From Desulfonatronospira thiodismutans ASO3-1 (lineage in GTDB: Bacteria > Desulfobacterota > Desulfovibrionia > Desulfovibrionales > Desulfonatronovibrionaceae): a stretch of DNA of 64,000 nucleotides. Shown here one piece after another: positions 20,642-36,421 of the stretch. The stretch is taken from NCBI RefSeq assembly GCF_000174435.1, contig NZ_ACJN02000003.1, positions 698,263-762,262 on the forward strand, written 5' to 3'. The notes under the pieces were generated by a model, which was not told where the DNA came from, ran no database searches, and was given only the letters and a program-made list of their open reading frames with translations. Positions within the stretch are counted from its first letter, which is position 1. Every line of letters starts with the position of its first letter. The position numbers were made by a program, and so were the translations under genes.

Positions 20642-21100
20642 ATGCGTTATCTTGTTGTCTTGACCCTGGCAGCCATGCTGCTGGCGGGCTGCACCACCCA
20701 GAAACATACTGTGGGCGGGGCGGCTCTGGGCGGAATCGGCGGGGGAGTAATCGGCTCCCAGATCGGCAAGGGCACCGGTCAGACCGCGGCCATCATCGGA
20801 GGAACCCTTCTGGGCGCTGCCCTGGGAGGATATGTGGGCAGCTACATGGACCGCATGGATGAGATGGACCGGCGTAACATGAACCAAACCCTGGAGACCA
20901 AGCCCACAGGGACCACTTCCCAGTGGCACAACCCCGATACACAGACCGCTTACGCCGTGACCCCCACTGAGACCTATCAGAGGGATGACGGGCGGTACTG
21001 CCGGGAATACACCACTGAAGTGCAGATCGGAGGGGAAACCGAGAAGGCCTACGGCACAGCCTGCCGCAGGGACGACGGGGCCTGGGAAATAATCAACTGA
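20642..21100 (+). CDS. Glycine-zipper outer-membrane lipoprotein (17-kDa surface-antigen-like)
   Basis: 152 residues. A lipoprotein signal peptide ends in the lipobox LLAGC (C17). Residues 24-67 are a glycine-zipper 2TM segment (GGAALGGIGGGVIGSQIG, GGTLLGAALGGYVGSY). The C-terminal half has the DDGRYCREYTTEVQIGG and ACRRDDGAWEI pattern of the Rickettsia 17-kDa antigen / RT0821 family. It is probably anchored in the outer membrane, with an envelope-integrity role inferred from the family. It is monocistronic and convergent with the diguanylate-cyclase gene. Confidence 0.85.
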   Translation: MRYLVVLTLAAMLLAGCTTQKHTVGGAALGGIGGGVIGSQIGKGTGQTAAIIGGTLLGAALGGYVGSYMDRMDEMDRRNMNQTLETKPTGTTSQWHNPDTQTAYAVTPTETYQRDDGRYCREYTTEVQIGGETEKAYGTACRRDDGAWEIIN

Positions 21101-21152
21101 TTTCTCTCTATAGCTTGAATGCAGCGGATAAGGTTCCGCCAGTTCTGGATCC

Positions 21153-22811
21153 TCATCCGCTGCAGAAGGCATAACATGATTTTGGATCTTTCTTGGCCCG
21201 GTACATGCTTTGGTCCGCCAGGCGCAGCAGTTCCTGAGGGTCAGCGGCATCATCGGGATATATACTGATCCCCATACTGAAATCCTGGTGAATCTCCATC
21301 CCCTCCAGCACAAAAGGCCTGCTCATCTCGCTTGATATTTTCCGGGCCACCCGCAGGACATCCTGACTGCTGCTGATACTTCCAAGAACTGCTACAAACT
21401 CATCCCCTCCATAACGGGCCACTGTATCGCTTTTGCGTACACACTTCTGCAGGCGCTGTCCCACCTGGTAAAGAAGCTTGTCCCCGGCCATATGACCGTA
21501 AAGATCATTGACCGGCTTGAATGAGTTGAGATCAAAAAAGACAACCCCCACTTTGTGCCCGTAGCGCGAAGCCATGGCAAAAGCCCTCTCCAGCCGGTCC
21601 AGCAGAAGCTCCCGGTTGGGCAGTTCCGTAAGATAGTCATGCATGGCCCTGTACGCCATCTCTTCCTGGGCCTTCTTCAACAGGGTAATATCCGAAATCA
21701 TGGCGTACCACATTTTCTCCCGGACATCGCTGTAGGGAACGGTACTTATGCGCAGCCACTTATAGGAGTTGTCCCGGTCCAGCACCCGGAACTCGCCATG
21801 AAATGGTTCATTTCTGTTCAGACTGTCGCCCATGCTTGAGCTCACCTGCTCTGAGTCATCCGGGTGAACATTGTCCCACAGCCTGACCGGATCCTGCAGG
21901 ATATCTTCCGGGGTGACCCCCAGAAGCTCAGTTACTCCCCGGCTCACAAACAGAGGCAAAAGCCCTTTTTCTTCCTGGACCTGGTACTGAATCACGGCTC
22001 CGGGCATATTTGCGGTTACTTCCTTGAGCAGCTTTTCGCTTCTCTCCAGTGCCTGCCGGCTTTTCTGCATATCGGTTATGTCCTGGGCAACCTCAACTAT
22101 GCTCAGCATCCTGTCATGCTCGTCCTTAACCGGATAAGCCCGCACTTCCCATATCCTGCCGTCCGGAGTATCCACGATGGAATGATCCGGGCTCTTGCTT
22201 TCCAGAGACCTGGTGACCGGACACTTGCGGCAGGGCTTATCATTTTCGTTCCACAGATGGTAGCATTTGCGGCCGATGAGTTCTTCGGCCCTCATGTCGA
22301 GACTGTCCGCCGCCGCCTGATTGGCCCAGAGTATGGTCAGTTCATGGTCCATGCACAGAACCAGCTCCCGGATGCTGTTCAGGACCATTTCATACCACCT
22401 TCTGTCTTCATCCAGCCTCATCTCGGCATACCTTATGCGCAGCATGGCCTCGATCTGAGCCAGAAGCTCCCTTGTCCTGACCGGCTTCACCAGGTATCCG
22501 TCAGCTCCGGACTCCAGTCCCTGGGCCCTGTCATCGGATTCGGTCTGAACACCGGAAAACATTATCACATAAGTTCCCTGCAGCCGGGAGTCTGATTTGA
22601 TTTTTCTGCATATCTCCAGGCCTCCCATGTCCGGCAGCATCACATCCAGCAAAACCAGGGCAGGCCTTCTGTTATAGACCATTTCCATGGCCTTTTCTCC
22701 GGTGGGGGCCTTCAAGACGTTGTATCCGGCCTCCTGCAGCACTCTGGAGGTCTGCATCATGGTCACGGGATCATCCTCTACAACCATGATCTCTTTTGCA
22801 TTGGCGTTCAT
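21153..22811 (-). CDS. Response regulator with two PAS domains and a GGDEF diguanylate cyclase
   Basis: 552 residues. Receiver domain at 1-125, with phospho-acceptor D56 (LVLLDVMLPDMGG). PAS 1 at about 140-255 contains C-x9-C-x2-C (CYHLWNENDKPCRKC). PAS 2 at about 265-380 is of the PAS_3 type. The GGDEF domain at about 385-548 has an intact active site GGDEF (468-472) and the inhibitory RxxD site five residues earlier (RKSD), so it should be an active, product-inhibited c-di-GMP synthase. GGAGG precedes the ATG. It is last in a three-gene operon 43 bases after the hybrid kinase, the likely phosphodonor. Confidence 0.92.
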   Translation of the reverse strand: MNANAKEIMVVEDDPVTMMQTSRVLQEAGYNVLKAPTGEKAMEMVYNRRPALVLLDVMLPDMGGLEICRKIKSDSRLQGTYVIMFSGVQTESDDRAQGLESGADGYLVKPVRTRELLAQIEAMLRIRYAEMRLDEDRRWYEMVLNSIRELVLCMDHELTILWANQAAADSLDMRAEELIGRKCYHLWNENDKPCRKCPVTRSLESKSPDHSIVDTPDGRIWEVRAYPVKDEHDRMLSIVEVAQDITDMQKSRQALERSEKLLKEVTANMPGAVIQYQVQEEKGLLPLFVSRGVTELLGVTPEDILQDPVRLWDNVHPDDSEQVSSSMGDSLNRNEPFHGEFRVLDRDNSYKWLRISTVPYSDVREKMWYAMISDITLLKKAQEEMAYRAMHDYLTELPNRELLLDRLERAFAMASRYGHKVGVVFFDLNSFKPVNDLYGHMAGDKLLYQVGQRLQKCVRKSDTVARYGGDEFVAVLGSISSSQDVLRVARKISSEMSRPFVLEGMEIHQDFSMGISIYPDDAADPQELLRLADQSMYRAKKDPKSCYAFCSG

Positions 22812-22854
22812 ATTAACTTTTTTCCTCCTGCATCAGGAGTGCCCCCCAAAAAAC

Positions 22855-24495
22855 CTAACCAGCTTCAGGGCTTAAAATTGACCCGAGAACCCGCTGTAAC
22901 CGCTGGAAATTAAAAGGCTTGGGCAGCAGATCATCCGCCCCCGCCTGCAGAAAATTTTCCTGTTCCTCATGATCCAGGGCACTCATGACCACCACCGGCA
23001 GCTTTTCCCTGCCCTGTTCCTTCTCAATGGTGCGAAGCCTCTGCAGTACTTCCACGCCGCTCATTTCAGGCATGACAATGTCCAGTAGAATCAGGTCAAA
23101 GCTGTCTTCCTGCAGGGCCTGAAGCACCTTTTGCCCATTGTCCACAAGTTTGTATTCCACACCCATCTTATCCAGGTATCTGGCCAGTATGGTCTGGTTC
23201 ATGGGCTCATCTTCCGCCACCAGGATCCTGCCGGAAAAATTCAGTGGTTTCTGCTCGATGGTCTTCTTTTCTTTGTGCAGGGCATCATGCCCGGACTTGA
23301 GGTGCATGGGCAGAGTTATGGTGAATGTAGTTCCTGCCCCCTGACTGCTCTGCACTTCTATTGTGCCGTCATGCGCTTCCACAAGTCTTCTGGCGATGGC
23401 CAGACCAAGGCCCACGCTCCCCTCTCCCTGGGTAGGCCTGGAACTGGTGGTCTGATATTCTGCAAAGAGCCTGTCCATTTCTTCACCGGGTATACCCTGT
23501 CCGTAGTCGGACACATCCAGCACCAGGTAGCCGTCTCTGGTATACAGCCTGACATCCACGGTACTGCCTGAAGGGGAGTACTTTATGGCATTGGTCAAAA
23601 GGTTGGTCACCATCTGGGTAAACTTGGCCACGTCCAGGTTGACTTGGGGCAGATCCTCCAGAACATGACAATTAAGAGAAATATCCTTTTCCCTTGCCAG
23701 CATCCGCAGAGGATCAAGGGCGTCCTGCACTACCCGGCCGGGGCGGACATTTTCCAGCTGCAGATTTATCTGACCGCTGTCGATCTTGGTCACGTCCAGA
23801 AGGTCTTCCACCATCCCCAGCATGAACCTGCTCAGGCTTTGAATCTTATCCAGCATGCCGGCACCGGTCTCGCTCAACTGGTGCTTCATGTCTTCCTGGA
23901 GCAGTTCTGCGTAAAGTTTTATGGACCCCAGAGGATTTCGCAGGTCGTGAGCAGCCATGCCCAGGAAAAAATTTTTCTGAGAATTGAGTTTTTCCAGGCG
24001 CACGATTTGCCGGGCAAGCTCGCGCTGGGCATTTGTCAGTTCATTGTTCAGGCTGGTCATTTCCTGAAGAACGGTGTTTCCCTCTTCCATGAACTGCTGC
24101 TCTCTGGCCTGGGTGGAATACTTCTTGTAAGCCTCCCGGATAAGATTGGTCTGCTCGTTATTGACCTTCAACAGCTCCTGGTAAAGATCGTTTAGAATGT
24201 CCCTGCTGTCTCCGGCCGTGATGACCATGTTATCCTGCACCCTGACCCCGGTAAAGTCTAAGGTACAGATCTCACCATTGACCTGCACGTTGAGCTCCCA
24301 GTTTAAGGCCAGTCCCTGTTCGTCCAGCTGCTTCCAGAAATTTTCAGCCTTCTGCATGGAATCCTGATGAAGGATATCATGAAAAAACAAGTCACCTGCA
24401 GCGTTTTCCATGTCCTTGAGGCCGTTGTACAGGACTTCCCGTATTCTGCCCGAGGCTTCACAGACTATGGCCAGGCAGTTAAGTGAGTTCTGCAT
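22855..24495 (-). CDS. Hybrid sensor histidine kinase with C-terminal receiver
   Basis: 546 residues, with no transmembrane segment, so cytoplasmic. Residues 1-105 are an unassigned, possibly PAS-like sensor region. Residues 105-180 are a long coiled coil. HisKA has H183 (MAAHDLRNPLGSIK). The HATPase has LLTNAIKYSPSG, DYGQGIPGEEM and GLGLAIARRLVEAHDG. The receiver at 423-545 has D472 (LILLDIVMPEMSG). It lies between the B12-binding sensor gene and the diguanylate-cyclase gene with 43-base gaps on both sides, so it is the probable link between them. Confidence 0.92.
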   Translation of the reverse strand: MQNSLNCLAIVCEASGRIREVLYNGLKDMENAAGDLFFHDILHQDSMQKAENFWKQLDEQGLALNWELNVQVNGEICTLDFTGVRVQDNMVITAGDSRDILNDLYQELLKVNNEQTNLIREAYKKYSTQAREQQFMEEGNTVLQEMTSLNNELTNAQRELARQIVRLEKLNSQKNFFLGMAAHDLRNPLGSIKLYAELLQEDMKHQLSETGAGMLDKIQSLSRFMLGMVEDLLDVTKIDSGQINLQLENVRPGRVVQDALDPLRMLAREKDISLNCHVLEDLPQVNLDVAKFTQMVTNLLTNAIKYSPSGSTVDVRLYTRDGYLVLDVSDYGQGIPGEEMDRLFAEYQTTSSRPTQGEGSVGLGLAIARRLVEAHDGTIEVQSSQGAGTTFTITLPMHLKSGHDALHKEKKTIEQKPLNFSGRILVAEDEPMNQTILARYLDKMGVEYKLVDNGQKVLQALQEDSFDLILLDIVMPEMSGVEVLQRLRTIEKEQGREKLPVVVMSALDHEEQENFLQAGADDLLPKPFNFQRLQRVLGSILSPEAG

Positions 24496-24538
24496 AGCTT
24501 ATCATCCTGATTCAAATCCTGATCTACATCTGGCTGGT

Positions 24539-25216
24539 TCAGGAGCACAGACTGAAGGCCAGTTCAACAGCCTGCACAGCATCCATTGCGCTTCCGTCTG
24601 CTCCGATTTTCTCCCATCCTCCGGGCTCCTGCAGGAATGCATGGCCTCCCACCATAATTTTCACGCCTTCCAGTCCCGGAGTCTGCCTTACTTCCTTTAT
24701 AATGGCCTCCACCCTCGGCCTGTTGGAAGTCAGTGTGGCTGATACAGCCAGAAGATGGACATTCTGATCCTTAACAGACCTGACCACTTCTTTTTCGGGC
24801 ATGTTGGCCCCCAGGTAATAAGTATCCCAGCCCTTCATCTCCAGAAGATCCGTGACCATGCGGATGCCCAGTTCGTGCAGCTCCCCGCCCACACAGCAGG
24901 CCACCATGGACAGTCCGTTTTTTTCAAAAGTCATGATCCTGGGGTACAAATGAGACATGATGAGCTGGGTTACAGCGGTGCAGTAATGCTCCTGGGCAAT
25001 GCTTATCTGGTTGGCAAGCCACAACCGGCCCATTTCATACTGAACCGGCTGAAAAACATACATGTATATATCCTGGATATCCACTCCCCGGTTCACTGCG
25101 TCCAGGATCAGGCGGACAGCTTCATTGCGACTGGACCCGCGTATGCAGTCCAGATAGGACTGGGCAAGTTCACAGTAAGGATTCTCTTTGCTGATACAGG
25201 AGGCTTGCTTGTTCAT
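24539..25216 (-). CDS. B12-binding sensor protein of the CarH/AerR type, without a DNA-binding domain
   Basis: 225 residues from the ATG at 25216; upstream in-frame starts at 25228 (GTG) and 25345 (TTG) are possible. Residues 15-90 form the helical cap with W66-x9-E76-H77 (WLANQISIAQEH), the motif that contacts the upper face of adenosylcobalamin in CarH-type photoreceptors. Residues 103-225 are the Rossmann-like B12 domain, with E112-x-H114-x-x-G (GELHELG), H114 being the expected lower axial ligand, then KGWDTYYLGANMP and VSATLTSNRP. There is no MerR-type HTH, as in AerR-like short proteins. First gene of an operon with the hybrid kinase and the diguanylate cyclase. B12-based light or cobalamin sensing is inferred. 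Confidence 0.8.
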   Translation of the reverse strand: MNKQASCISKENPYCELAQSYLDCIRGSSRNEAVRLILDAVNRGVDIQDIYMYVFQPVQYEMGRLWLANQISIAQEHYCTAVTQLIMSHLYPRIMTFEKNGLSMVACCVGGELHELGIRMVTDLLEMKGWDTYYLGANMPEKEVVRSVKDQNVHLLAVSATLTSNRPRVEAIIKEVRQTPGLEGVKIMVGGHAFLQEPGGWEKIGADGSAMDAVQAVELAFSLCS

Positions 25217-25755
25217 GGACTCATCCACAGTTTTGATATATTTATCGGTTCTACATCGTCTCCGGCCGGGACCGGCCTGTTTACAAGCAACTACAAAATT
25301 CAGTTCAGTTATATTGACACTCGACTCCCCGCCTGCCCCGGACAAGACAGCAGAGATTTTCCCTGCGCCTTTGCTTCATGGCGATTATATAAATAATGTC
25401 AAAAAAAGCCAGTAAAAGCAATCCGCTGAACAGACCGGAATACATACGGACTGAAAAAAAACCCGAGATATCAAGTGGAAAGACATAATCCTTTTATCTT
25501 ACGATACCCTGTCCTCTGTTACCTGTCCTGCAGACCGGCACGGCGTCAGTTTGCTGATTAATTCTGGACAGATAAATCTCCAGTAAATGACTGTGAATAT
25601 TTTTTAAAATAAAACCAGAGGTTTGAGTGACGTTTTCTCAGCAGATTCCTTTTCTTGACTTCACCTGCAGTTCAAGATATCAGGATAAATCACTTGAAGC
25701 AGGTACCGGCAAAGGCAGCTTCCAGCTGCTGATGCACGCTCACCTGACGGAGAAG
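25217..25755. other. Divergent intergenic region between the B12-sensor operon and the cobalamin riboswitch
   Basis: There is no supported gene here. A candidate plus-strand promoter for the riboswitch transcript is TTGACT (25655-25660), 17 bases, then TATCAG (25678-25683), the second hexamer being weak. No convincing minus-strand promoter for the sensor operon could be picked by eye. Confidence 0.4.
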
Positions 25756-25965
25756 AAGGTTCGGGTGCGCTTTGCGCCTAACAGGGAACCCTGTGCAAGT
25801 CAGGGACGGACCCACCGCTGTAACCGGGGACCAAAGCCGCATTCAGGCCACTGCCCCGCACTTACTTTTCTATGGGTGTTTTTTCCTTGAAGAAAAAAGT
25901 AAGTGCGGGGCGGGAAGGCGCGGCAAGTAGAAAGATCCGGAAGTCAGAAGACCTGCCTGAACCTC
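25756..25965 (+). promoter_or_regulatory. Cobalamin (AdoCbl) riboswitch with a long repeat-derived stem
   Basis: The conserved boxes occur in order: AGGGAACCCTGTGCAAGTC, GGACCCACCGCTGTAACCGG, AAAGCCGC ... GCCACTG, GGGAAGGCGCGGCAAGTAG and CCGGAAGTCAGAAGACCTGCC. The ends AAGGTTC (25756-25762) and GAACCTC (25959-25965) pair as P1. Between GCCACTG and GGGAAGG the variable stem (25854-25910) is a 57-bp hairpin with arms CCCCGCACTTACTTTT and AAAAGTAAGTGCGGGG. It precedes btuCD and the cob genes, so it should turn down cobamide uptake and synthesis when B12 is plentiful. Confidence 0.95.
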
Positions 25966-26032
25966 TTGAAGAATTGCCGGGCCGGACAATCGGCAAAAAA
26001 AGATCATGATGCCGCGGATGAAAATGGGACAT

Positions 26033-26418: not shown

Positions 26419-27444
26419 ATGCGCATAAGGACATCCATACTCCTCGTTACCCTGGCATTCATGCTTCTGGGCATGATCATCGCCTCGGTAAGCATGGGCT
26501 ACGTCCAGGTACCTCTGTCCACCACTTTCCAGATGCTCTTTTACAAGATCACCGGGCAGCAGGAGCTTTTGCTCCAGGCAGACCCGCTGGTTTACACCGT
26601 GATTTTCGAGGTCAGGCTGCCCAGAGTACTCACCGCAGCCATTGTTGGCGCGGGCCTGGCCCTGGCCGGAGTCATATTCCAGGGTCTTCTGCTGAACCCC
26701 CTGGCCGACCCGTATACTTTGGGGGTATCATCCGGAGCGGCTTTCGGGGCCTCCCTGGTGCTGCTTTTCAACCTGCAGTTCCTTGGGCTTTACACCCTGC
26801 CCCTGTTCGCCTTTATCGCCGGATGCCTGACCCTTCTCTTTGTGGTCTACCTTTCGGCCACGGCCGGTGGATTGTCTTCCAACAATCTTATTTTGTCCGG
26901 AGTGATAGTCAGCGCCATTCTTTCCGCCGGCATAAGCCTGTTCAAGTACCTGGCCCAGGAAAGGGTCTCGGTGATAATATTCTGGCTCATGGGCAGCTTT
27001 GCCTCCAGCACCTGGCCGGAGCTTATCCTGACTTCGTCCATGGTGTTTCTGGGATTCATGGTCTTCATGTTTTATTCCAGGGATATAAATCTCATCTGCC
27101 TGGGCAGCCGGGCCGCGGCGTCTCTCGGCGTGGACACCACTAAGCTCAGGATTATCCTCCTGATAACCGCTTCCCTGGTGGCTGCGGTCTGCGTATCCAT
27201 CTCCGGGATAATCGGATTTGTAGGCCTACTGGTACCGCACATGATGCGCTCTCTAACCGGACCTGAGCACAGAAGCCTTTTGCCGGTGAGCCTTTTGTGC
27301 GGGGCGGTGCTTCTTCTGGCCGCGGACACTTTGACCAGGACCATGCTTCCGGCGGAAGTGCCCATTGGGGTGCTTACAGCCCTCATTGGCGGGCCTTTTT
27401 TCTGCTATATCTTCCGCAAACGCCAGATGCAGTTCAGGGTGTAG
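26419..27444 (+). CDS. btuC: FecCD-type ABC transporter permease, probably cobalamin/cobamide import
   Basis: 341 residues, about ten hydrophobic segments, with the family signatures LPRVLTAAIVGAGLALAGVIFQ, NPLADPYTLGVSSGAAFGA and GIIGFVGLLVPHMMR. It forms the inner-membrane channel of a B12 or siderophore importer. Placement directly behind a cobalamin riboswitch and with btuD and cob genes makes cobamide the likely substrate. No Shine-Dalgarno sequence is seen before the ATG: the preceding 18 bases are T-rich and the repeat copy B ends there. Confidence 0.88.
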   Translation: MRIRTSILLVTLAFMLLGMIIASVSMGYVQVPLSTTFQMLFYKITGQQELLLQADPLVYTVIFEVRLPRVLTAAIVGAGLALAGVIFQGLLLNPLADPYTLGVSSGAAFGASLVLLFNLQFLGLYTLPLFAFIAGCLTLLFVVYLSATAGGLSSNNLILSGVIVSAILSAGISLFKYLAQERVSVIIFWLMGSFASSTWPELILTSSMVFLGFMVFMFYSRDINLICLGSRAAASLGVDTTKLRIILLITASLVAAVCVSISGIIGFVGLLVPHMMRSLTGPEHRSLLPVSLLCGAVLLLAADTLTRTMLPAEVPIGVLTALIGGPFFCYIFRKRQMQFRV

Positions 27445-27447
27445 AGT

Positions 27448-28221
27448 ATGGCCTTTTCCATGAAAGATGTACATTTCGCCCTGGGAGAAACCAGCATCCT
27501 GGAAGATATAAACATTGACCTGCCTCCGGGCAGAATATACGGCATCCTGGGTCCCAACGGCAGTGGCAAGTCCACCTGGCTGGACCTGCTCATCCGGCAC
27601 AGGGTGCCGCAGCAGGGCATGGTAGAGTATAACGGCCACCCCCTGGGATCATACTCCAGGAAACAGATCTCCAAGGAAATGGCCTTAGTTCCCCAGGACT
27701 ACCGCCTGAACTTTCCCTTCCAGGTCCTGGAGGTGCTGCTCATGGGCAGATATCCTTTTCTGCCGCGTTTTGCATCTCCTGGCAGCCGGGACCTGGATAT
27801 CGTCCGGGAGGTTATGCAGAAGACCGGCCTGGAAAAATTTCAGGACAGGATGGTTACTGAGCTGAGCGGTGGTGAGCGCCAGCGGGTGGTTTTCGCCAGG
27901 GCCCTGGTTCAGGATACGCCGGTGCTCATTCTGGATGAAGCCACGGCCAGCTTAGATATCAAGCACGGCCTGCACCTTCTGTCCTTAGTGCGGCAAAAAA
28001 ACCAGCAGGCCCGGACCACGGTCTTTTCCGTATTTCAGGACATCAACCTGGCTGCAGCCTTCTGCAGCCATATTATCTTTTTCAAGCAGGGACGAATCCT
28101 GCTGCACGGCCCGACTACAGAAGTGCTCACCCCGCAAAACCTGGAGCGCGTCTTTGACGTCCGGGCCAAGGTCTATTTCGACGATTATGCACAGTCCACC
28201 CAGGTGGTGTTCAAGGTTTAA
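27448..28221 (+). CDS. btuD: ABC transporter ATP-binding protein of the cobamide importer
   Basis: 257 residues. Walker A GPNGSGKST (35-43), signature LSGGERQRVVFARAL, Walker B PVLILDEATASLD, and a switch histidine region in VFSVFQDINLAAAFCSHI. It energises the BtuC channel and lies 3 bases after btuC. FecE/BtuD-type proteins for haem or iron siderophores look alike; assignment to B12 is from the riboswitch and neighbours. Confidence 0.88.
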   Translation: MAFSMKDVHFALGETSILEDINIDLPPGRIYGILGPNGSGKSTWLDLLIRHRVPQQGMVEYNGHPLGSYSRKQISKEMALVPQDYRLNFPFQVLEVLLMGRYPFLPRFASPGSRDLDIVREVMQKTGLEKFQDRMVTELSGGERQRVVFARALVQDTPVLILDEATASLDIKHGLHLLSLVRQKNQQARTTVFSVFQDINLAAAFCSHIIFFKQGRILLHGPTTEVLTPQNLERVFDVRAKVYFDDYAQSTQVVFKV

Positions 28222-28241
28222 CATCTCTGTGCGCGCATCTT

Positions 28242-28299
28242 AGTTATCTGTTAATTGTTATCTGTTATCTGTTAATTGTTAATTGTTAATTGTTAATTG
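28242..28299. repeat. AT-rich degenerate tandem repeat (GTTAATT / GTTATCT units)
   Basis: About eight 7-9-base units alternate between GTTATCT and GTTAATT. It lies just after btuD and before the first 115-bp inverted-repeat element. Confidence 0.85.
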
Positions 28300-28305
28300 G
28301 GGTAA

Positions 28306-28420
28306 GGCAACTCCCGGAAAATAGAATTATTAACCTGGGTGGGCGGCGACCTTTTAATTTCCCGCATGTTGCCCAGAACTCCCCACCCTGAAACTGTTAC
28401 GTTATTTTCAGGTAGTTGCC
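28306..28420. repeat. 115-bp inverted-repeat element, copy 1
   Basis: The ends GGCAACTCCCGGAAAATA and, inverted, GGCAACTACCTGAAAATAA are related terminal inverted repeats. The interior (ACCTGGGTGGGCGGCGACC ... CCCCACCCTGAAACT) has no open frame. It differs from copy 2 at five of 115 positions. It could be a non-autonomous mobile element or a structured RNA repeat. Confidence 0.85.
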
Positions 28421-28615
28421 ATAATCAAGCTCCAGTAGGAGTATTTATACAGATGCATGCGACAGAGTGTTGCCACGCCTCGATCTGCTCCCCTCCTTGG
28501 CTAAGGAGGGGTTGGGGGTGGTTCGATATTTAGCTCCCTTCCTTAACCGGCTTCTTTTCAGGCTAAGCAGGGGAGCTACACCGTGCCCTGGATTTATTTG
28601 TGTGGTGGAAGCTTA
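28421..28615. other. Spacer between the two 115-bp elements
   Basis: There is no open frame with a start signal. It holds a perfect hairpin CCCCTCCTT / AAGGAGGGG (28490-28511) followed by GTTGGGGGTGG, a motif common in bacterial intergenic repeats, and a second GC stretch AGGGGAGCTACACC. It may be part of a composite repeat with the flanking elements. Confidence 0.4.
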
Positions 28616-28730
28616 GGCAACTCCCGGAAAATAGAATTATAAACCTGGGTGGGCGGCGACCTCTTAATTTTCCGCATGATGCCCAGAACTCCCCACCCTG
28701 AAACTATTACGTTATTTTCAGGTAGTTGCC
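28616..28730. repeat. 115-bp inverted-repeat element, copy 2
   Basis: It is in the same orientation as copy 1 with five substitutions. Its terminal inverted repeats extend outward as CTTAGGCAACT and AGTTGCCTAAG, so the flanks include a TA on each side, compatible with a TA target duplication. From 28731 to the next gene at 28926 only AT-rich leader is seen. Confidence 0.85.
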
Positions 28731-28925
28731 TAAGGTAGTTAATTCAAGCTGTTGTTCTTCAACCATAAACAATAACGGACAGTCAAAAGTTCTAGCGCAA
28801 CACGCTGGAATAGTTATAGTTTTTTAATCCCAGCTGTCTAATTACATTTAAAACATAACCACCTGAAATCAAAAGCTTTTTTCTTTAACTATTAACTGAT
28901 AATTTTTATCTCTCAAATACTAAAC

Positions 28926-29927
28926 ATGAAGATTAAAACCACCTTTACCATATTCTGCGTTTTTCTGGCCCTAATCTACTCTGGTTGCCAGGCCCTGGCC
29001 TCGGAAATGAAAATCCTGGATCAGCAAACCATCCAGGATCAGGGGGGCAGAACCATCCAGGTGGATGAGCCCTTTGAGCGCATCATCTCCCTTTATGGGG
29101 CTCATACGGAAAACCTTTTTTCTCTGGGCCTGAACCAGGAAGTTATCGGAGTGGGCATGAACGAGTGTTACCCTCCCCAGGCCCTGGAAAGACCGTCTTT
29201 TTCCTACCAGGAAGGCCCGGAAAAAATCCTGGCCCACAGGCCGGACCTGGTGCTGGTGAGACCCATGATTGACTGGGCCTATCCCCGGCTCATGGATACC
29301 CTGGAGCGCTCCGGAATTACCATAGTTTCCCTGCAGCCCGGCAGCAAAGATGAAATGTTCAAGTACTGGAAGATACTTGGCATTCTTACCGGAAAAGAGG
29401 AGCAGGCCCTGCAGATGCAGGAGAACTTCAAGGCCGGACTGGAATACGCCCGGAGCCTGACCGCTCATGTGGAGGATAAAAAAGGCGTGTTCTTTGAATC
29501 CATACATGAACAACTCAAGACCTTCTCCCCGGATTCCATGCCCATGCTTGTACTGGAAGCAGCAGGAGGCGAAAACGCTGCATTAGATGCACGTCAGGTG
29601 CGCGGCACCAACATTGCCGATTTCGGGCAGGAAAAACTTTTGTCCAGGGCGGATAAAGTCCAGGTTTATCTTTCCCAGCAGGGCCCCATGAACCAGGCCA
29701 GCCCTGAAAACATTAAAAAACGCCCCGGTTTGCACCTGCTTAAGGCAGTACAGCAGAACCGGGTTTACGCTATTGACGAAGTCCTGGTCTCCAGGCCCAC
29801 CATGCGCCTTCTGCAGGGGATATACGTGGTGGGGGAACACCTTTACCCGGATATATTCCACGAAGACACCCGGGAAAAACTCGACAACTACCGCAAAATG
29901 CAAGGCAGTGAATCTGAAGACTCCTGA
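28926..29927 (+). CDS. btuF: Periplasmic substrate-binding protein of the cobamide ABC importer
   Basis: 333 residues. A Sec signal peptide spans residues 1 to about 25 (cleavage likely after ALA; the SGC at 19-21 is a poor lipobox). The mature part is a FecB/BtuF-type type III binding protein (RIISLYGAHTENLFSLGL, VIGVGM, PDLVLVRPMIDWAYPRLMDTLERSGI). It captures the ligand in the periplasm for BtuCD. It is separated from btuD by 700 bases of repeats, but the three form one importer. A cobinamide, cobamide or siderophore ligand cannot be told apart from sequence. Confidence 0.85.
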   Translation: MKIKTTFTIFCVFLALIYSGCQALASEMKILDQQTIQDQGGRTIQVDEPFERIISLYGAHTENLFSLGLNQEVIGVGMNECYPPQALERPSFSYQEGPEKILAHRPDLVLVRPMIDWAYPRLMDTLERSGITIVSLQPGSKDEMFKYWKILGILTGKEEQALQMQENFKAGLEYARSLTAHVEDKKGVFFESIHEQLKTFSPDSMPMLVLEAAGGENAALDARQVRGTNIADFGQEKLLSRADKVQVYLSQQGPMNQASPENIKKRPGLHLLKAVQQNRVYAIDEVLVSRPTMRLLQGIYVVGEHLYPDIFHEDTREKLDNYRKMQGSESEDS

Positions 29928-29952
29928 TAGCTTGACTCCCAAAGGAAAACCA

Positions 29953-30675
29953 ATGAACAACAGACAAGGAAAACTCTACGGCATAGGAGTGGGGCCGGGC
30001 GACCCGGAACTGATACCCCTCAAGTCAATCAACATTCTCAAAAAAGTAGACGTGGTCTTCTGCGCCTCTTCCAGCAAAAACAACCACAGCCTGGCCGTAA
30101 ACATCGCCAGGGAATATCTTCCAAAGGATACCCTGATTCACAGGCTGCCCTTTCCCATGACCATGGACAAGGAAGTGGCCTCTAAGGCCTGGTCTGAGCA
30201 CGTTGACACCATCCTGGCTGAGCTGAACCAGGGCAAGGACGCTGCCTTTCTCACCCTGGGAGATCCCCTGACCTATTCCACTTTCGGCTACCTCATGCAG
30301 TGCCTGCAATCCAACGCCCCGGAAATCCGCATCGAAACCGTCCCCGGCATCACATCCTTTCAGGCTGCAGCAGCCGCCACCAACACCACCCTGGTGGAGG
30401 GCGAGGAAAGCCTGCTCCTGCTTTCAGGGGTCCAGGGCGGAGACAAGCTCCGGGAGATGTCCTCCAGGGTGGACAACGTGGTCTTTCTCAAGGCCTACAA
30501 AAATATTACGGATATCTGCGAGGCCTTGGATGAAAGCGGGCGGATGAAGACGGCGGTGGGCGTGGTTCGCTGTGGCTTCCCGGACCAGGAAGTATTTCAG
30601 GATGTAAAAGAGCTCTGCAGCCAGGAACCTAAGTACTGGACCCTGATTATATCCAAGCCGGGGCAGGAAGAATGA
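29953..30675 (+). CDS. cobI: Precorrin-2/cobalt-factor II C20-methyltransferase
   Basis: 240 residues from the ATG at 29953, preceded by AAAGGAAA; a longer frame to 29773 overlaps btuF and is rejected. LYGIGVGPGDPELIPLKSINIL is the CobI/CbiL N-terminus, with LTLGDPLTYSTFGYL and VPGITSFQAAAAATNTTLVEG. It methylates C20 of the corrin ring with SAM. The oxygen-independent route (CbiL name) is likely in this anaerobe. Its stop codon overlaps the cobS start (ATGA). Confidence 0.92.
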   Translation: MNNRQGKLYGIGVGPGDPELIPLKSINILKKVDVVFCASSSKNNHSLAVNIAREYLPKDTLIHRLPFPMTMDKEVASKAWSEHVDTILAELNQGKDAAFLTLGDPLTYSTFGYLMQCLQSNAPEIRIETVPGITSFQAAAAATNTTLVEGEESLLLLSGVQGGDKLREMSSRVDNVVFLKAYKNITDICEALDESGRMKTAVGVVRCGFPDQEVFQDVKELCSQEPKYWTLIISKPGQEE

Positions 30676-31415
30676 GGTTTTTGCAGCCGTTTCTGGCCGC
30701 GCTGCAGTTTTTGACCATAATACCTGTCGGCGGCCAGATACCGCAGACGGCCCTAGGGAGGGCCATGCCCTGGTTTCCTGTGGCCGGACTGGTCATCGGT
30801 GTGGGTGCCGGGCTGGCATACACTCTGACCCTGCTCCTGGGACTGCCGCCCATGGCCGCCTCATTAGTGGGGGTTTTGGTTTTGTCCGGCCTGAGCGGTT
30901 TTCTGCACCTGGACGGAGTGGCTGATACAGCTGACGGTTTTTTCAGTGCCAGGTCCAGGGAGAAAATCCTGGACATCATGCGCGACAGCCATGTGGGGAC
31001 CATGGGCGTTGTAGGCCTTTTTGCTGTTCTGGGTCTAAAGTGGGCCGCTCTGACCTCCATGCCCCCGGTGGCCGCCTGGAAGGCCCTGGTCCTGGCCCCG
31101 GTACTGGGACGCGCGGCCCAGGTGTGCAGTATGGCTCTGCTGCCCTACGCCCGCTCCACCGGCGGACTGGCTTCCATCTTTATAAACAGTCGCCGCAGGT
31201 CCGACATATACTGGACCCTTGGTATTGCAGGCATCGCATCCCTGCTGGCAGGAGGTGCCGGCGTGGCCGCCCTGATCCTGGGTGCTGTGGCAGCATATCT
31301 TTTCAGCCTGTGGTGTTTGAAAAAAATAGGCGGCATCACCGGAGATACAGTGGGAGCAGCCACAGAGGTTGTGGAAACAGCCGCTCTGTGCGCCATCTGC
31401 GCCATAGTGGTTTGA
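30672..31415 (+). CDS. cobS: Adenosylcobinamide-GDP ribazoletransferase (cobalamin synthase)
   Basis: 247 residues, polytopic membrane protein. LQFLTIIPVGG, FLHLDGVADTADGFFS, SREKILDIMRDSHVGTMGV and GGITGDTVGAATEVVE are the family signatures, including the acidic metal-binding DGVADTADG. It joins alpha-ribazole (phosphate) to adenosylcobinamide-GDP in the inner membrane, the last step of nucleotide-loop assembly. It overlaps cobI by four bases. Confidence 0.95.
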   Translation: MRFLQPFLAALQFLTIIPVGGQIPQTALGRAMPWFPVAGLVIGVGAGLAYTLTLLLGLPPMAASLVGVLVLSGLSGFLHLDGVADTADGFFSARSREKILDIMRDSHVGTMGVVGLFAVLGLKWAALTSMPPVAAWKALVLAPVLGRAAQVCSMALLPYARSTGGLASIFINSRRRSDIYWTLGIAGIASLLAGGAGVAALILGAVAAYLFSLWCLKKIGGITGDTVGAATEVVETAALCAICAIVV

Positions 31416-31452
31416 TAATCCTGCGTATATCCGGAACATAAGGAGTTACTCA

Positions 31453-32229
31453 TTGACTTTAAAATCCAATTCCACATGGCGGCTGGGGACTACATCCTAC
31501 ATCATCCCGGACCACATCCTGCCCAACCTGTATTATCTTCAGGACAAGGTGGATGATGTGGAACTGATACTTTTTGAGTCCGGAGAACAGTCCAGCATCC
31601 CGGATGCATCCCAGGTACGCCTGATGCAGTCTCTGGCTAAGGACTCCGGCCTGAGCTACACCGTGCACCTGCCCCTGGACCTGTATCCCGGAGCCCGGGA
31701 TGAAGCCTTACGCCGCACCTGTACAGAAACCTGGAAACGCATTGTCGGGCTCATGCAGCCAGTGGACCCAGTGGGCTGGGTGGTGCACCTGAACGATCCT
31801 CCCCGGGACGAAGACTTCCTGCCCGCCTGGCAGGAGCAGTGCCGCAAAAGTCTGGAAGAACTTTCCCGGGAAGTTGAACCCGGGCTGTTATGCATTGAAA
31901 ACTTAGATTACGACCATGAACTCATCTGGCCCTGGGTGCTGGAGATGGGCTTTTCCCTGTGCATGGACCTGGGCCACCTCCAGGTCCGGGGAGAAGACCT
32001 GCCGGCATGCCTGGACAGATGGCTGGACCATGTCCGGATAATTCACCTGCATGCCCTCAACAGTGAGGGCCGGGACCACACAGGGCTGCAGCACATGGAC
32101 AGAGACCTGCTGGCCTGGCTTTTATCGAGCTTTGACAGCAAGACACGGCCCTTGGTGGTCACCCTGGAAATCTTCTCCAGCAAACATTTTCAGGGCTCTC
32201 TAAAGGCCATACAGGAGGCCAGGCAGTGA
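31453..32229 (+). CDS. cbiR: Cobamide-remodelling phosphodiesterase CbiR-like (AP-endonuclease-fold TIM barrel)
   Basis: 258 residues. The start is a TTG at 31453 with AAGGAG 7 bases upstream. Metal-binding residues of an AP-endonuclease/xylose-isomerase TIM barrel are visible: YTVHLPLDL (H), GWVVHLNDP (H), LLCIENLDYDHE (E), LCMDLGHL (D, H), RIIHLHAL (H) and VTLEIFS (E). CbiR hydrolyses the phosphodiester of cobamides so that the lower ligand can be replaced. Position between cobS and cobU strongly supports a cobamide role. It overlaps cobU by 4 bases. Confidence 0.78.
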   Translation: MTLKSNSTWRLGTTSYIIPDHILPNLYYLQDKVDDVELILFESGEQSSIPDASQVRLMQSLAKDSGLSYTVHLPLDLYPGARDEALRRTCTETWKRIVGLMQPVDPVGWVVHLNDPPRDEDFLPAWQEQCRKSLEELSREVEPGLLCIENLDYDHELIWPWVLEMGFSLCMDLGHLQVRGEDLPACLDRWLDHVRIIHLHALNSEGRDHTGLQHMDRDLLAWLLSSFDSKTRPLVVTLEIFSSKHFQGSLKAIQEARQ

Positions 32230-32741
32230 ACCGGGTGACGTATATCTGCGGCGGATGCAGAAGCGGCAAAAGCTCCTTTGCCCTGCAGCTGATGCAGACC
32301 TTTGAGCGAAAAGCGTTTATAGCCACGGCCGAGGCCCTGGATGAAGAAATGCACCAGAGAATCCAGAGACACCAGCAGGAACGCGGACAGTCCTTTTTTA
32401 CTGTTGAAGAACCCCTGGACCCGGCACAAGCCCTGTCCAGACTCCCCGGGGACACCCAGGCCGCAGTCCTGGACTGCCTCACCGTATGGCTGGGCAATCT
32501 CATGCACCAGGAGCTTGTGCAGGAAGACACCTGCCCGCAACTGGAAAATTTCTTTGCCCTGCTTGCAGCCCCGCCCTGCCATGTATTCGTGGTCAGTAAC
32601 GAACTGGGCATGGGCCTGGTCCCCGGTGACTCACTTTCGCGCAGGTACCGGGACATGATGGGCCGCATCAACCAGCGGACCGCATCCCTGGCCCATGAGG
32701 CCTATTTTGTAGTCAGCGGGATGCCTCTCAGATTGAAATAA
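32226..32741 (+). CDS. cobU: Adenosylcobinamide kinase / adenosylcobinamide-phosphate guanylyltransferase
   Basis: 171 residues starting with GTG at 32226 within the cbiR stop (GTGA). P-loop GGCRSGKSS (9-17); the guanylylation histidine region is HQRIQRHQQERG; DCLTVWLGNL and VSNELGMGLVPGDSLSRRYRD follow. It phosphorylates adenosylcobinamide, then transfers GMP to give adenosylcobinamide-GDP, the CobS substrate. Confidence 0.95.
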   Translation: MNRVTYICGGCRSGKSSFALQLMQTFERKAFIATAEALDEEMHQRIQRHQQERGQSFFTVEEPLDPAQALSRLPGDTQAAVLDCLTVWLGNLMHQELVQEDTCPQLENFFALLAAPPCHVFVVSNELGMGLVPGDSLSRRYRDMMGRINQRTASLAHEAYFVVSGMPLRLK

Positions 32742-32767
32742 CCACCTGCAAACCAAAGGAACAGCCA

Positions 32768-33832
32768 ATGACTCTACTGGAGCAATCCATCCAGCACATA
32801 ACCCAGCCGGACCAGGAAATAAAATCAGCTGCCCTGAAGCGTCTGGCGAACCAGGCCAGGCCGCGGGGAAGTCTGGGCCGGCTGGAACCGGCAGCGGCCC
32901 GTCTGGCCTCCATCTGCGGCCGGCTGGATGTAAAGCTTGACCGGAAAACAATAGTCACCTGTGCCGGTGATCACGGGGTGGTTGAAGAAGGGGTCAGCCT
33001 CTTTCCAAGCGAAGTCACGGCCCAGATGGTCTACAATTTCGTCCAGGGCGGGGCATCCATAAATGTCCTGGCTGCCCACGCCGGGGCCAGGGTCAGGGTG
33101 GCCGACCTGGGAGTAAGCCACGATTTTGATCCAGGACTTGATATCCTGCACAAAAAAATCCGCAAAGGCACTGCCAACATGGCCACAGGCCCGGCCATGA
33201 CCCGGGAGGAGGCAGCTGCATCCGTCGAGGCCGGTATTGGCATTGCAAACCAACTGGCTGATAGCCCGGGCCTGGATCTTCTGGGCACCGGGGACATGGG
33301 CATAGGCAATACCACTGCCTCTTCCGCCATTATAGCGGTTTATTCCGGGCTGCCCCTCAAAGAACTGGTAGGACCGGGCACGGGACTGGACGAGCAGGGG
33401 CTTGACCTCAAGGCCAGGGTCATAAAAAGGGCTCTGGATCTTAACCGCCCGGACCCTGCCGACCCCATGGGTGTTCTGGCCAGGGTAGGCGGACTGGAGA
33501 TCGGGGGACTGGCCGGACTGGTCATAGGCGCGGCAGCAAGACAGATTCCGGTGGTCTGCGACGGACTCATCTCCACCGCCGGGGCCCTGATAGCCTGCGA
33601 ACTATGCCCTGCAGCCGGGCAGTATATCTTTGCCGGGCACCGCTCCCGAGAAACAGGACACGAGTACATGCTCAGGCACTTAGGCCTGACCCCCCTGCTG
33701 GATCTGGAGATGCGCCTGGGCGAAGGCACAGGTGCAGCCCTGGCCATGCACATCCTGGATGCCTGTACCAGAATCCTGGCGGATATTAAAACCTTTGAAG
33801 AAGTAGGCATTGAAAATGCCCATGAAGGCTAA
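32768..33832 (+). CDS. cobT: Nicotinate-nucleotide:dimethylbenzimidazole phosphoribosyltransferase
   Basis: 354 residues. LANQARPRGSLGRLE near residue 28, CAGDHGVVEEGVS, VQGGASINVLA, LLGTGDMGIGNTTASSA and AGHRSRETGHEYML are the diagnostic segments; the catalytic glutamate lies near the C-terminus. It activates the lower-ligand base by transfer of ribose phosphate from nicotinate mononucleotide. The downstream fused gene starts 3 bases later. Confidence 0.95.
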   Translation: MTLLEQSIQHITQPDQEIKSAALKRLANQARPRGSLGRLEPAAARLASICGRLDVKLDRKTIVTCAGDHGVVEEGVSLFPSEVTAQMVYNFVQGGASINVLAAHAGARVRVADLGVSHDFDPGLDILHKKIRKGTANMATGPAMTREEAAASVEAGIGIANQLADSPGLDLLGTGDMGIGNTTASSAIIAVYSGLPLKELVGPGTGLDEQGLDLKARVIKRALDLNRPDPADPMGVLARVGGLEIGGLAGLVIGAAARQIPVVCDGLISTAGALIACELCPAAGQYIFAGHRSRETGHEYMLRHLGLTPLLDLEMRLGEGTGAALAMHILDACTRILADIKTFEEVGIENAHEG

Positions 33833-33835
33833 GAC

Positions 33836-36421
33836 ATGAGCACCTCCCCCCAGCAGCCCCACGGCGGGGACATCTCTGCCCTGGCCCGCAAGTCCGGGCT
33901 TAGCCCTGATGCAATTGTGGACTTTTCCGCCAGCATCAATCCGCTGGGATTTCCGGAATGGCTGCGCCCGCTGATAAGCACAACCCTGGAAAAGGCGGCC
34001 CATTACCCCGACCCCGGGGCCTGCGACCTGGTCCAGGCCGCCTGCCGGCGCTACAATACCCGGCCGCAAGAAGTCCTGGCAGGCAATGGTACAGCCGAGA
34101 TTATTTCTCTGCTTCCGCTGGCCATGAATTTTAAGCGGGCCGTGATACCCGCCCCCACCTACGCTGATTACGCCCGGGCCTGCCTTGCTGCAGGACTTAA
34201 GGTGCATCGAGTCAATCTGGACCAGGCCCTGGATTTCGCCCTGGATCCGGCTGAGCTTGCACCCCATCTGCAGGGCCGGGATCTGGTCTTTATCTGCCGT
34301 CCCAACAACCCCACCGGCTTAGACGTGGATGCAGCCGGGATACGCAGGCTGGCCGCGGACTTTCCGGACAGCCTTTTTGTAGTGGATGAGGCCTTCGGCG
34401 ACTTTGTGCCTGATTTTGACAGCCTGGTGCAAAACCGTCCCGTCAATGTCACGGTCCTTTTGTCCATGACCAAGATGTTCGCCCTGCCCGGTCTGCGCCT
34501 GGGCCTGGCCCTGGCAGACCCGGAGGTGGTCCGGGCCGTATCCGGCATCCAGCCCTTCTGGTCGGTGAACGTCCTGGCCCAGGCCGCCGGGGTGCAGGCC
34601 CTGCAGGACCATGAGTTTGTGCTTAAAACCAGAGAGTACGTCGCCCGGAAGCGCAACAGCCTGTCTCAAAGCCTGGGTGAGATTCCAGGCATAAAGATCT
34701 ACCCCGGACAGGCCAACTTTCTGCTCCTGGGGCTGGATGAGCGCCTGCCCGAAGCTTCAGAACTCACAGTCCTACTCCTTGAAAAGCACGGCCTGGCTGT
34801 ACGGGACTGCTCCAATTTTCACGGTCTGGACCACAGGCACGTGCGGGTGGCGGTGCGCTCTTCCCGTGAAAACCAGATGCTAGTGCGGGCCATGCACAGC
34901 GTTCTCACTGCAAAACCACCCAGGCCGGCCCAGTCAAAACCGCCGGCCATCATGTTTCAGGGCACCAGCTCCAATGCCGGCAAAAGCATCCTGGCCGCTG
35001 CCATGTGCCGCATACTGCTCCAGGATGGATACCGGCCTGCGCCCTTTAAATCCCAGAACATGTCTCTTAATTCCTTTGTCACCAGCCAGGGCGGTGAAAT
35101 GGGCCGGGCCCAGGTGGTCCAGGCCCAGGCCGCCCGGTTGGAGCCGGACGTGCGCATGAACCCGGTGCTTCTAAAGCCCAGCAGCCAGACCGGGTGCCAG
35201 GTGATAATCAACGGTCAGGCAGTGGGCAACATGGGTGCAACAGGTTACGTGGATTACAAGCCCAAGGCATTCCAGGCCGCCAGGCAAGCCTATGACAGCC
35301 TGGGCCGGGAATTCGACGTCCTGGTCCTGGAAGGGGCCGGCAGTCCAGCTGAAATCAATCTCAAGAGCCACGACATAGTCAACATGGCCATGGCCGAATA
35401 CGCCCGCTCTCCGGTCCTCATCGTGGGGGACATCGACCGCGGCGGGGTGTTCGCTTCCTTTGCCGGGACCATGGAGGTCCTGGCCGAGTGGGAGCGAAAA
35501 CTCATCCGAGGCTTTGTGGTCAACAAGTTCCGGGGGGATGCCTCCCTGCTGGGAAACGCCTTTGAACTGACCCTGCAGCACACCGGCAGGCCGGTGGTGG
35601 GAGTGGTGCCCTACATGCAGAACCTGGATCTGCCGGACGAGGATTCAGTGGGCTGGAAGGAGGGCATTAAGGACCAGAATGGCCACGCAGAAGACTGTGT
35701 CCGGGTGGGCGTAGCGGATCTGCCCCACATAAGCAATTTCACCGATTTTGACGCCCTGCGCCTGGAACCGGACGTAAGCCTGGAAACAGTCCGTTCCCCT
35801 AATGACCTGCAGGGACTGGATGCAGTTATTATTCCCGGCAGCAAAAACGTATTCCAGGACCTGGCCTGGCTGGACCAAACCGGGCTCAAGGCTGCCATTT
35901 CCAGACTTGGCTCTGAGCAGAAGGTGGAAATAATCGGCATCTGCGGAGGGCTGCAGATGCTTGGTAATGAAATAAGCGACCCCTTTGAGCTGGAATCCCC
36001 GGGACAGAAAGTGCAGGCCGCCGCCCTTCTGGATATTTATACGGAAATGGCCCACCAGAAAACCCTGACCCGGGTGGAGGCCACCCATATACAGTCCGGA
36101 CTCAATGTCCTGGGCTATGAAATCCATCATGGAGTCAGCCGTCTCGGGGGCCGGCCGCTCTTGCGGCTTCCTGACGGGAAAAATGAGGGGGTTCTCTCTG
36201 AAAGCGGGCTGGTATGGGGTACTTACTTGCACGGAATTTTCGATGCCGACGAATTCCGCCGCTGGGTCATCGACCAATTGCGCAGCCGCAGGGGAATGGA
36301 GCCCAAGAACCAGGTCATGTGCATCTACAACCCGGACCAGGCCCTGGACCGCCTGGCTGAGCAGGTCCGCTCAAGCCTGGACCTGGAACTTATCTATAAA
36401 TGGATGGGGCTAAAGGAATAA
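33836..36421 (+). CDS. cobD-cobQ: Fused threonine-phosphate decarboxylase (CobD) and cobyric acid synthase (CobQ/CbiP)
   Basis: 861 residues. Residues 1 to about 355 are a fold-type I PLP enzyme resembling CobD/HisC: VDFSASINPLG, AGNGTAEIISLLP, RPNNPTGL, VDEAFGDF, Schiff-base K213 in SMTKMFALPGLRLG. It would make (R)-1-amino-2-propanol phosphate from L-threonine phosphate. Residues about 370-861 are CobQ: FQGTSSNAGKSILAAAMCR, PFKSQNMSLNSFVT, a type I amidotransferase with C703 (GICGGLQMLG) and H799 (YLHGIFD). It amidates cobyrinic acid diamide to cobyric acid. The linker is proline-rich (KPPRPAQSKPP). The frame is continuous with no internal stop or shift. Confidence 0.93.
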   Translation: MSTSPQQPHGGDISALARKSGLSPDAIVDFSASINPLGFPEWLRPLISTTLEKAAHYPDPGACDLVQAACRRYNTRPQEVLAGNGTAEIISLLPLAMNFKRAVIPAPTYADYARACLAAGLKVHRVNLDQALDFALDPAELAPHLQGRDLVFICRPNNPTGLDVDAAGIRRLAADFPDSLFVVDEAFGDFVPDFDSLVQNRPVNVTVLLSMTKMFALPGLRLGLALADPEVVRAVSGIQPFWSVNVLAQAAGVQALQDHEFVLKTREYVARKRNSLSQSLGEIPGIKIYPGQANFLLLGLDERLPEASELTVLLLEKHGLAVRDCSNFHGLDHRHVRVAVRSSRENQMLVRAMHSVLTAKPPRPAQSKPPAIMFQGTSSNAGKSILAAAMCRILLQDGYRPAPFKSQNMSLNSFVTSQGGEMGRAQVVQAQAARLEPDVRMNPVLLKPSSQTGCQVIINGQAVGNMGATGYVDYKPKAFQAARQAYDSLGREFDVLVLEGAGSPAEINLKSHDIVNMAMAEYARSPVLIVGDIDRGGVFASFAGTMEVLAEWERKLIRGFVVNKFRGDASLLGNAFELTLQHTGRPVVGVVPYMQNLDLPDEDSVGWKEGIKDQNGHAEDCVRVGVADLPHISNFTDFDALRLEPDVSLETVRSPNDLQGLDAVIIPGSKNVFQDLAWLDQTGLKAAISRLGSEQKVEIIGICGGLQMLGNEISDPFELESPGQKVQAAALLDIYTEMAHQKTLTRVEATHIQSGLNVLGYEIHHGVSRLGGRPLLRLPDGKNEGVLSESGLVWGTYLHGIFDADEFRRWVIDQLRSRRGMEPKNQVMCIYNPDQALDRLAEQVRSSLDLELIYKWMGLKE

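Follow-up and report, generated by a model that had tools for sequence, protein, structure and literature searches.

A stand-alone cobalamin-binding protein and its probable partner kinase beside a diguanylate cyclase gene of Desulfonatronospira thiodismutans

Three neighbouring genes of Desulfonatronospira thiodismutans ASO3-1 raise the question of whether a cobalamin-binding protein could control a histidine kinase and, through it, the level of cyclic di-GMP (c-di-GMP), as had been proposed in a preliminary description of this DNA. The window, i.e. the whole stretch of 64,000 nucleotides analysed, was re-read for this purpose, and the coordinates, gaps and motifs given in that description were all found to be correct. 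The three genes are located on the minus strand. A stand-alone cobalamin-binding domain (CBD) protein of 225 aa with a W66/E76/H77/H114 signature (P0001) is encoded at 24539-25216, followed by a hybrid histidine kinase of 546 aa (P0002, 22855-24495) and a diguanylate cyclase of 552 aa (P0003, 21153-22811). Both intergenic gaps, 24496-24538 and 22812-22854, measure 43 nt. No sigma-70 promoters were found in a scan of positions 20950-25800, where the count was below that in shuffled sequences. Pfam searches confirmed P0002 as a soluble hybrid kinase (HisKA, HATPase and REC, preceded by a PAS-like part and a linker helix), and Pfam and motif analysis confirmed P0003 as a REC-PAS-PAS-GGDEF protein with intact GGDEF and RxxD inhibitory sites.

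For P0001, the Pfam search returned B12-binding_2 (PF02607) at residues 18-90 and B12-binding (PF02310) at 105-217, with no MerR-type or other DNA-binding domain. Both hallmarks reported earlier, W-x9-EH and E-x-H-x-x-G, are present within the motifs G63-x2-W66-x9-E76-H77, E112-x-H114-x2-G117 and G136-x3-P140. The published signature of light-responsive CBDs, the SignatureFinder class (GxxW, EH, GxxH and GxxxP; PMC11796333), is complete (G63-W66, E76-H77, G111-H114, G136-P140). Among the relatives, W66, E76/H77, E112 and H114 vary little or not at all, and GxxW-x9-EH and ExHxxG are each kept in 63 of 64 distinct CBDs, which places their conservation beyond chance. The tryptophan is followed by Leu67 in P0001, and nearly all relatives have Gln or Glu there. 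The closest PDB chains by sequence are the photocobilins 8j2w/8j2x (80.5 bits) and 8j2y (72.4 bits), then CtMerR 8jbs (71.3 bits), while methyltransferase-type corrinoid proteins reach at most 47 bits and CarH about 26 bits. An AlphaFold model of P0001 (pLDDT 91, pTM 0.86) also placed photocobilins and CtMerR on top in Foldseek. By VIA-align the model matched 8j2w with Z 25.0 (rmsd 2.2 over 207), CtMerR 8jbt/8jbs with Z of about 22, AerR 7te2 with Z 20.8, the AppA SCHIC domain 4heh with Z 19.9 and CarH with Z of about 19-20. AdoCbl binding and a green-light response have been demonstrated for photocobilins and CtMerR (PMC10979010, PMC11796333). The grouping of P0001 with the light-responsive CBDs is thus supported by sequence and by the predicted fold, and the ligand of the protein is almost certainly a corrinoid, with AdoCbl the most likely one. 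Roughly one in three CBD relatives (e.g. L037, L044, L045, L046, L052, L109) carry an extra helical N-terminal domain of 130-170 aa that has no Pfam match and is absent from P0001; its profile showed weak matches to the biliverdin-binding domain of 8j2w (E 0.046) and to a globin (E 0.3).

The kinase P0002 has its own REC domain and lacks an HPt domain. No Pfam family could be assigned to its first approximately 110 aa, which were modelled by AlphaFold as a PAS-like fold (residues 6-97, window 24205-24480, minus strand) with low confidence (pLDDT 65-78), and which aligned to PAS-B domains with a Z of about 7. In the model this domain is followed by a 90-residue helix running into HisKA. A profile of the first approximately 180 residues, comprising the PAS-like part and linker (alignment A3), was searched separately from the CBD. 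Among 297 genomes of the order, 22 have a member of the main CBD clade (E below 1e-80) and 21 match the A3 profile, as do three more in the phylum sample. All 21 belong to the CBD set of 22, and the remaining genomes of the 297 are without A3. The A3-bearing gene lies directly downstream of a CBD gene in 24 of 24 loci, which include related genomes and are not independent events, with -1 to 92 nt between the end of the CBD frame and the start of its domain. Among the 64 distinct CBDs, 57 have a partner with the linker helix described below, a rate that is biased since loci fetched via the helix search are adjacent by construction; the unbiased figure is 21 of 22 in the order. Such pairs were also found in SAR324, on Azospirillum plasmids including those of A. 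brasilense Sp7, and in Ilyobacter polytropus (CBD ILYOP_RS12675, GGDEF protein ILYOP_RS15340). It is very probable from this gene pairing that the CBD protein acts on P0002. A second, diverged pair is encoded in the same genome (L047; CBD at G000:C1:226598-227134, kinase helix at 226054-226167); its CBD is 35% identical and its kinase carries the same helix.

Diverged partners matched A3 over about 45 residues only, immediately before HisKA or GGDEF. An alignment of this helix (A5; 39 columns, 16 rows) follows the pattern LNNELxNxQRELxKKNxEL with three invariant columns, N150, E152 and R158 in P0002, where the helix spans residues 139-177 (window 23965-24081, minus strand). Searches with A5 covered 150 order-level and 390 phylum-level genomes and yielded 32 genes and 13 further ones. 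Of these 45 helix-bearing genes, 44 adjoin a CBD gene, which is located upstream in 43 cases and downstream in one (G183); without the 12 genes used for building A5, the count is 32 of 33. The genome containing the window has only two helix matches, namely its two CBD-paired kinases. The exception, a 692-aa PAS-hybrid kinase (L156, G008:C25:7450-7563), lacks a CBD gene in the 16 kb of sequence read; a CBD pair is found on another contig of the same genome, and the kinase might share that CBD. The partners in L146, L148, L149 and L161 start at the helix and miss the PAS-like domain, which makes the helix the common denominator of CBD partners.

The output enzymes joined to the helix, assigned by motif and for a subset also by Pfam, are exchangeable. 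A kinase is the partner of 39 of the 64 CBDs, a GGDEF protein of 15, a short PAS-helix protein with a CHC/CPEC tail of two and a SpoIIE phosphatase followed by a kinase of one, while seven have no recognised helix partner. The helix is retained across kinase, GGDEF and SpoIIE outputs, and at least six changes between kinase and GGDEF are needed on the CBD tree, a quick tree with several weak forks. Because the helix tracks the CBD through these changes and even where the PAS-like domain has been lost, the simplest reading, and a probable one, is that the CBD docks on residues 139-177 of P0002. That CBD and kinase form a cognate pair working in trans through this helix is reasonably likely on the same comparison of sequences. 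Adjacency and a common helix indicate partnership, but neither binding nor the direction of control.

Several known systems resemble this arrangement. P0001 is a stand-alone protein with its partner gene alongside, as regards the trans-acting CBDs of the AerR/PpaA type. The AerR/PpaA-CrtJ/PpsR and AppA SCHIC-PpsR systems of purple bacteria share the fold (Z of about 20), the lower-ligand His and the Trp, and their CBD acts in trans on a partner with PAS and a long helix, the same order as in P0002. In the AppA-PpsR complex, SCHIC, a relative of the CBD, sits on the long Q-linker helix after PAS, and AerR has been modelled likewise (PMC9144470). They differ in that their partner is the HTH repressor CrtJ/PpsR and here a kinase, cyclase or phosphatase; photosynthesis genes are absent here, sequence identity is only about 15%, and an N-terminal His such as His10 of LAerR is missing. 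No match to profile A3 was obtained for PpsR in the PDB sequences, and the two may still be distantly related. Photocobilins (SasPcob, AbDPcob) have the nearest CBD by sequence and fold, and in AbDPcob a light-type CBD is likewise linked to c-di-GMP by fusion to a diguanylate cyclase; P0001, in contrast, consists of the CBD only, has no biliverdin-binding globin domain, and is encoded separately from the output. CarH/LitR and CtMerR have the W, EH and lower-ligand His of P0001 but also a MerR DNA-binding domain, and the His after the Trp in CarH (H132, bis-His light state) is replaced by Leu67.

In the preferred reading, the first two genes would encode a split sensor kinase. P0001 would hold a corrinoid, most likely AdoCbl, between a helical cap (W66, E76, H77) and the Rossmann domain, with H114 as the lower cobalt ligand. 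Some change of the bound cobalamin, with light-driven Co-C photolysis the most likely one, would alter the docking of the CBD in trans on the linker helix between the PAS-like domain and HisKA, and this would switch the kinase. The working analogy is the action of AerR or AppA SCHIC on the CrtJ/PpsR Q-linker helix, except that a kinase output would take the place of DNA binding. The phosphoryl signal may then pass to the REC domain of P0003, directly or through an HPt encoded elsewhere, and set c-di-GMP. One of these two routes would be needed, given that P0002, as a hybrid kinase, includes a REC domain but no HPt.

P0003 carries REC (PF00072) at residues 8-120 and GGDEF (PF00990) at 389-544, with RKSD five residues before GGDEF (RKSD-TVARY-GGDEF), and is predicted by domains and motifs to be a Rec-GGDEF diguanylate cyclase. 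At the cut-off used, orthologues were found in four other genomes of 150 (G004, 70% identity; G007, G008 and G010, 47-48%), and none of them has a CBD or a kinase of the pair type alongside, as far as the contigs reach. In G004, which belongs to the same genus, a radical-SAM gene and the next gene are 93% identical to the window and the cyclase comes next; the similarity ends at the cyclase start (window 22813), and no kinase is present in the 500 bases before it. The preliminary description had named joint conservation of the three genes as a check, and these orthologues, one of them syntenic, do not bear it out. The trio as a conserved unit was discarded on the same four genomes; the conserved unit is the CBD-partner pair. 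Either the pair entered before a resident cyclase in the lineage of the window, or G004 lost it, and entry is favoured by the three genomes that are more distant. P0003 thus appears to be a separate, resident and lineage-specific third gene, which co-transcription may have put under the CBD-kinase pair. In G007 and G008 the orthologues (L177, L178) have a receiver-domain gene and a CheA-like gene in their vicinity, possibly a sign of an older regulatory partner.

On the other side of the CBD gene, a cobalamin riboswitch (Rfam RF00174, 103 bits; 25746-25974) and B12 transport and synthesis genes (26419-36421) are encoded on the plus strand. NCBIfam identified BtuC- and BtuD-like proteins, CbiL, CobS, CbiR, CobU, CobT and CobD-CobQ. 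The B12 operon mentioned in the preliminary description is therefore real and has a riboswitch, but it is divergent from the trio, so that the riboswitch does not precede the three genes, and linkage was found in one relative only. This is L042, the only examined relative with B12-synthesis genes nearby, in which a 46% identical CobD-CobQ lies 1.5 kb from the CBD pair. As a conserved feature the linkage was dropped on this basis. The operon also includes the cobamide-remodelling CbiR (31453-32226) and an 861-aa CobD-CobQ fusion (33836-36421). The host genome carries dsrA, as in an anaerobic-type, sulfate/sulfite-reducing bacterium, and a BtuR/CobO adenosyltransferase for AdoCbl; a PduO-type adenosyltransferase was not found in it.

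Two alternatives concern the parts of the sensor itself. P0001 could be a methyltransferase corrinoid protein and no sensor, as its NCBIfam scores for MtgC and MtbC (58 bits) exceed that for CarH (38.7 bits, cut-off 400), and the monomethylamine corrinoid protein 3ezx is among the top folds (Z 22.6). These three scores fall well short of cut-offs that start at 350, the methyltransferase families (MtbC, MtgC and MtaC) reach at most 58 bits with cut-offs of 215 to 450, photocobilins and CtMerR rank first among PDB sequences, and the CBD genes are near-universally paired with signalling proteins. This identity was dropped on the sub-cut-off scores and is most improbable. The helix, in turn, could be a generic coiled-coil linker whose link to the CBD reflects common descent of one gene pair, and many of the loci are indeed related by descent. 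The partner helix is similar in length, position and attached outputs to S-helices, which span about 40 residues and precede a kinase, cyclase or PP2C output (PMC1592074). S-helices are defined by an ERT signature in the central heptad (PMC1592074), which none of the 16 rows of A5 contains; the partner helix occurs almost exclusively beside CBD genes, though the genomes are rich in kinases and cyclases, its sensor is a separate protein, and helix and CBD stay together even as the outputs change or the PAS-like domain disappears. A generic linker is accordingly regarded as unlikely, although far less so than a methyltransferase protein.

For a helix-docked sensor, the nature of the signal and the output have to be weighed next. 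The main rival to light, on account of the anaerobic-type (dsrA) host, is that the same split module reports cobamide or redox status to the kinase, the signal being corrinoid supply or the ligand and redox state of cobalt (AdoCbl, MeCbl, cob(II)alamin). The CBD gene beside B12 synthesis and CbiR remodelling genes fits this, as do the missing bis-His light-state residue and a PpaA/AerR-like protein of R. rubrum that has lost the B12 motif and for which redox action was reported (PMC10734443). The anaerobic-type host, in which light sensing would be only putative, counts against the mechanism. The B12 neighbourhood is not conserved, however, and 63 of 64 relatives retain the W and EH, known from CarH-type CBDs as adenosyl contacts; CtMerR also lacks the light-state His, with Arg at that position, and responds to light nonetheless (PMC11796333). 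Two points tip the balance slightly towards light: nearly all members retain Trp and EH, and every characterised close relative is light-responsive (PMC10979010, PMC11796333). The sequence is compatible with either signal; light is likely, and corrinoid or redox sensing appears rather doubtful. As to output, the light-type CBD is tied to the kinase by gene pairing, and this half of the proposed phosphorelay stood; the proposed step to c-di-GMP draws on the operon-like gene layout, and the trio is not co-conserved. CBD and kinase could form the sensor while the cyclase is an independent neighbour with a kinase of its own and no c-di-GMP output follows. The pair-free orthologues and the P0002 domain composition agree with this; the tight same-strand layout and the recurrence of GGDEF as direct partner in 15 of 64 CBD relatives oppose it and make a c-di-GMP link plausible for the trio. 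The chances that P0003 is the output of the sensor are about even, and an independent cyclase falls just short of that.

Photoreceptors built on a CBD, trans-acting stand-alone CBDs and a CBD-cyclase fusion are already known. In the literature searched, with partial coverage, no stand-alone CBD matched by a dedicated helix to exchangeable outputs was found, and earlier mention of CBD-kinase gene pairs is possible. We tentatively propose, at somewhat less than an even chance, a widespread split B12 photosensor in which a stand-alone AdoCbl CBD plugs in trans into any helix-bearing output enzyme (kinase, diguanylate cyclase or PP2C phosphatase), regardless of whether a PAS-like domain is present, with light sensed even in anaerobic sulfur-metabolising bacteria. 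If true, B12 photoreception would reach beyond one-protein regulators and include a portable plug made of two proteins on kinases, cyclases and phosphatases. It would also make the communication between a stand-alone CBD and its partner directly testable, offer a short transferable helix for green-light tools, and raise the question why bacteria of anoxic habitats retain the AdoCbl light signature. The pairs of the tractable A. brasilense Sp7 make this testable in vivo. Among the short CBD partners, L151, L154 and L155 (G185, G523) carry a cysteine-rich CHC...CPEC tail after the helix.
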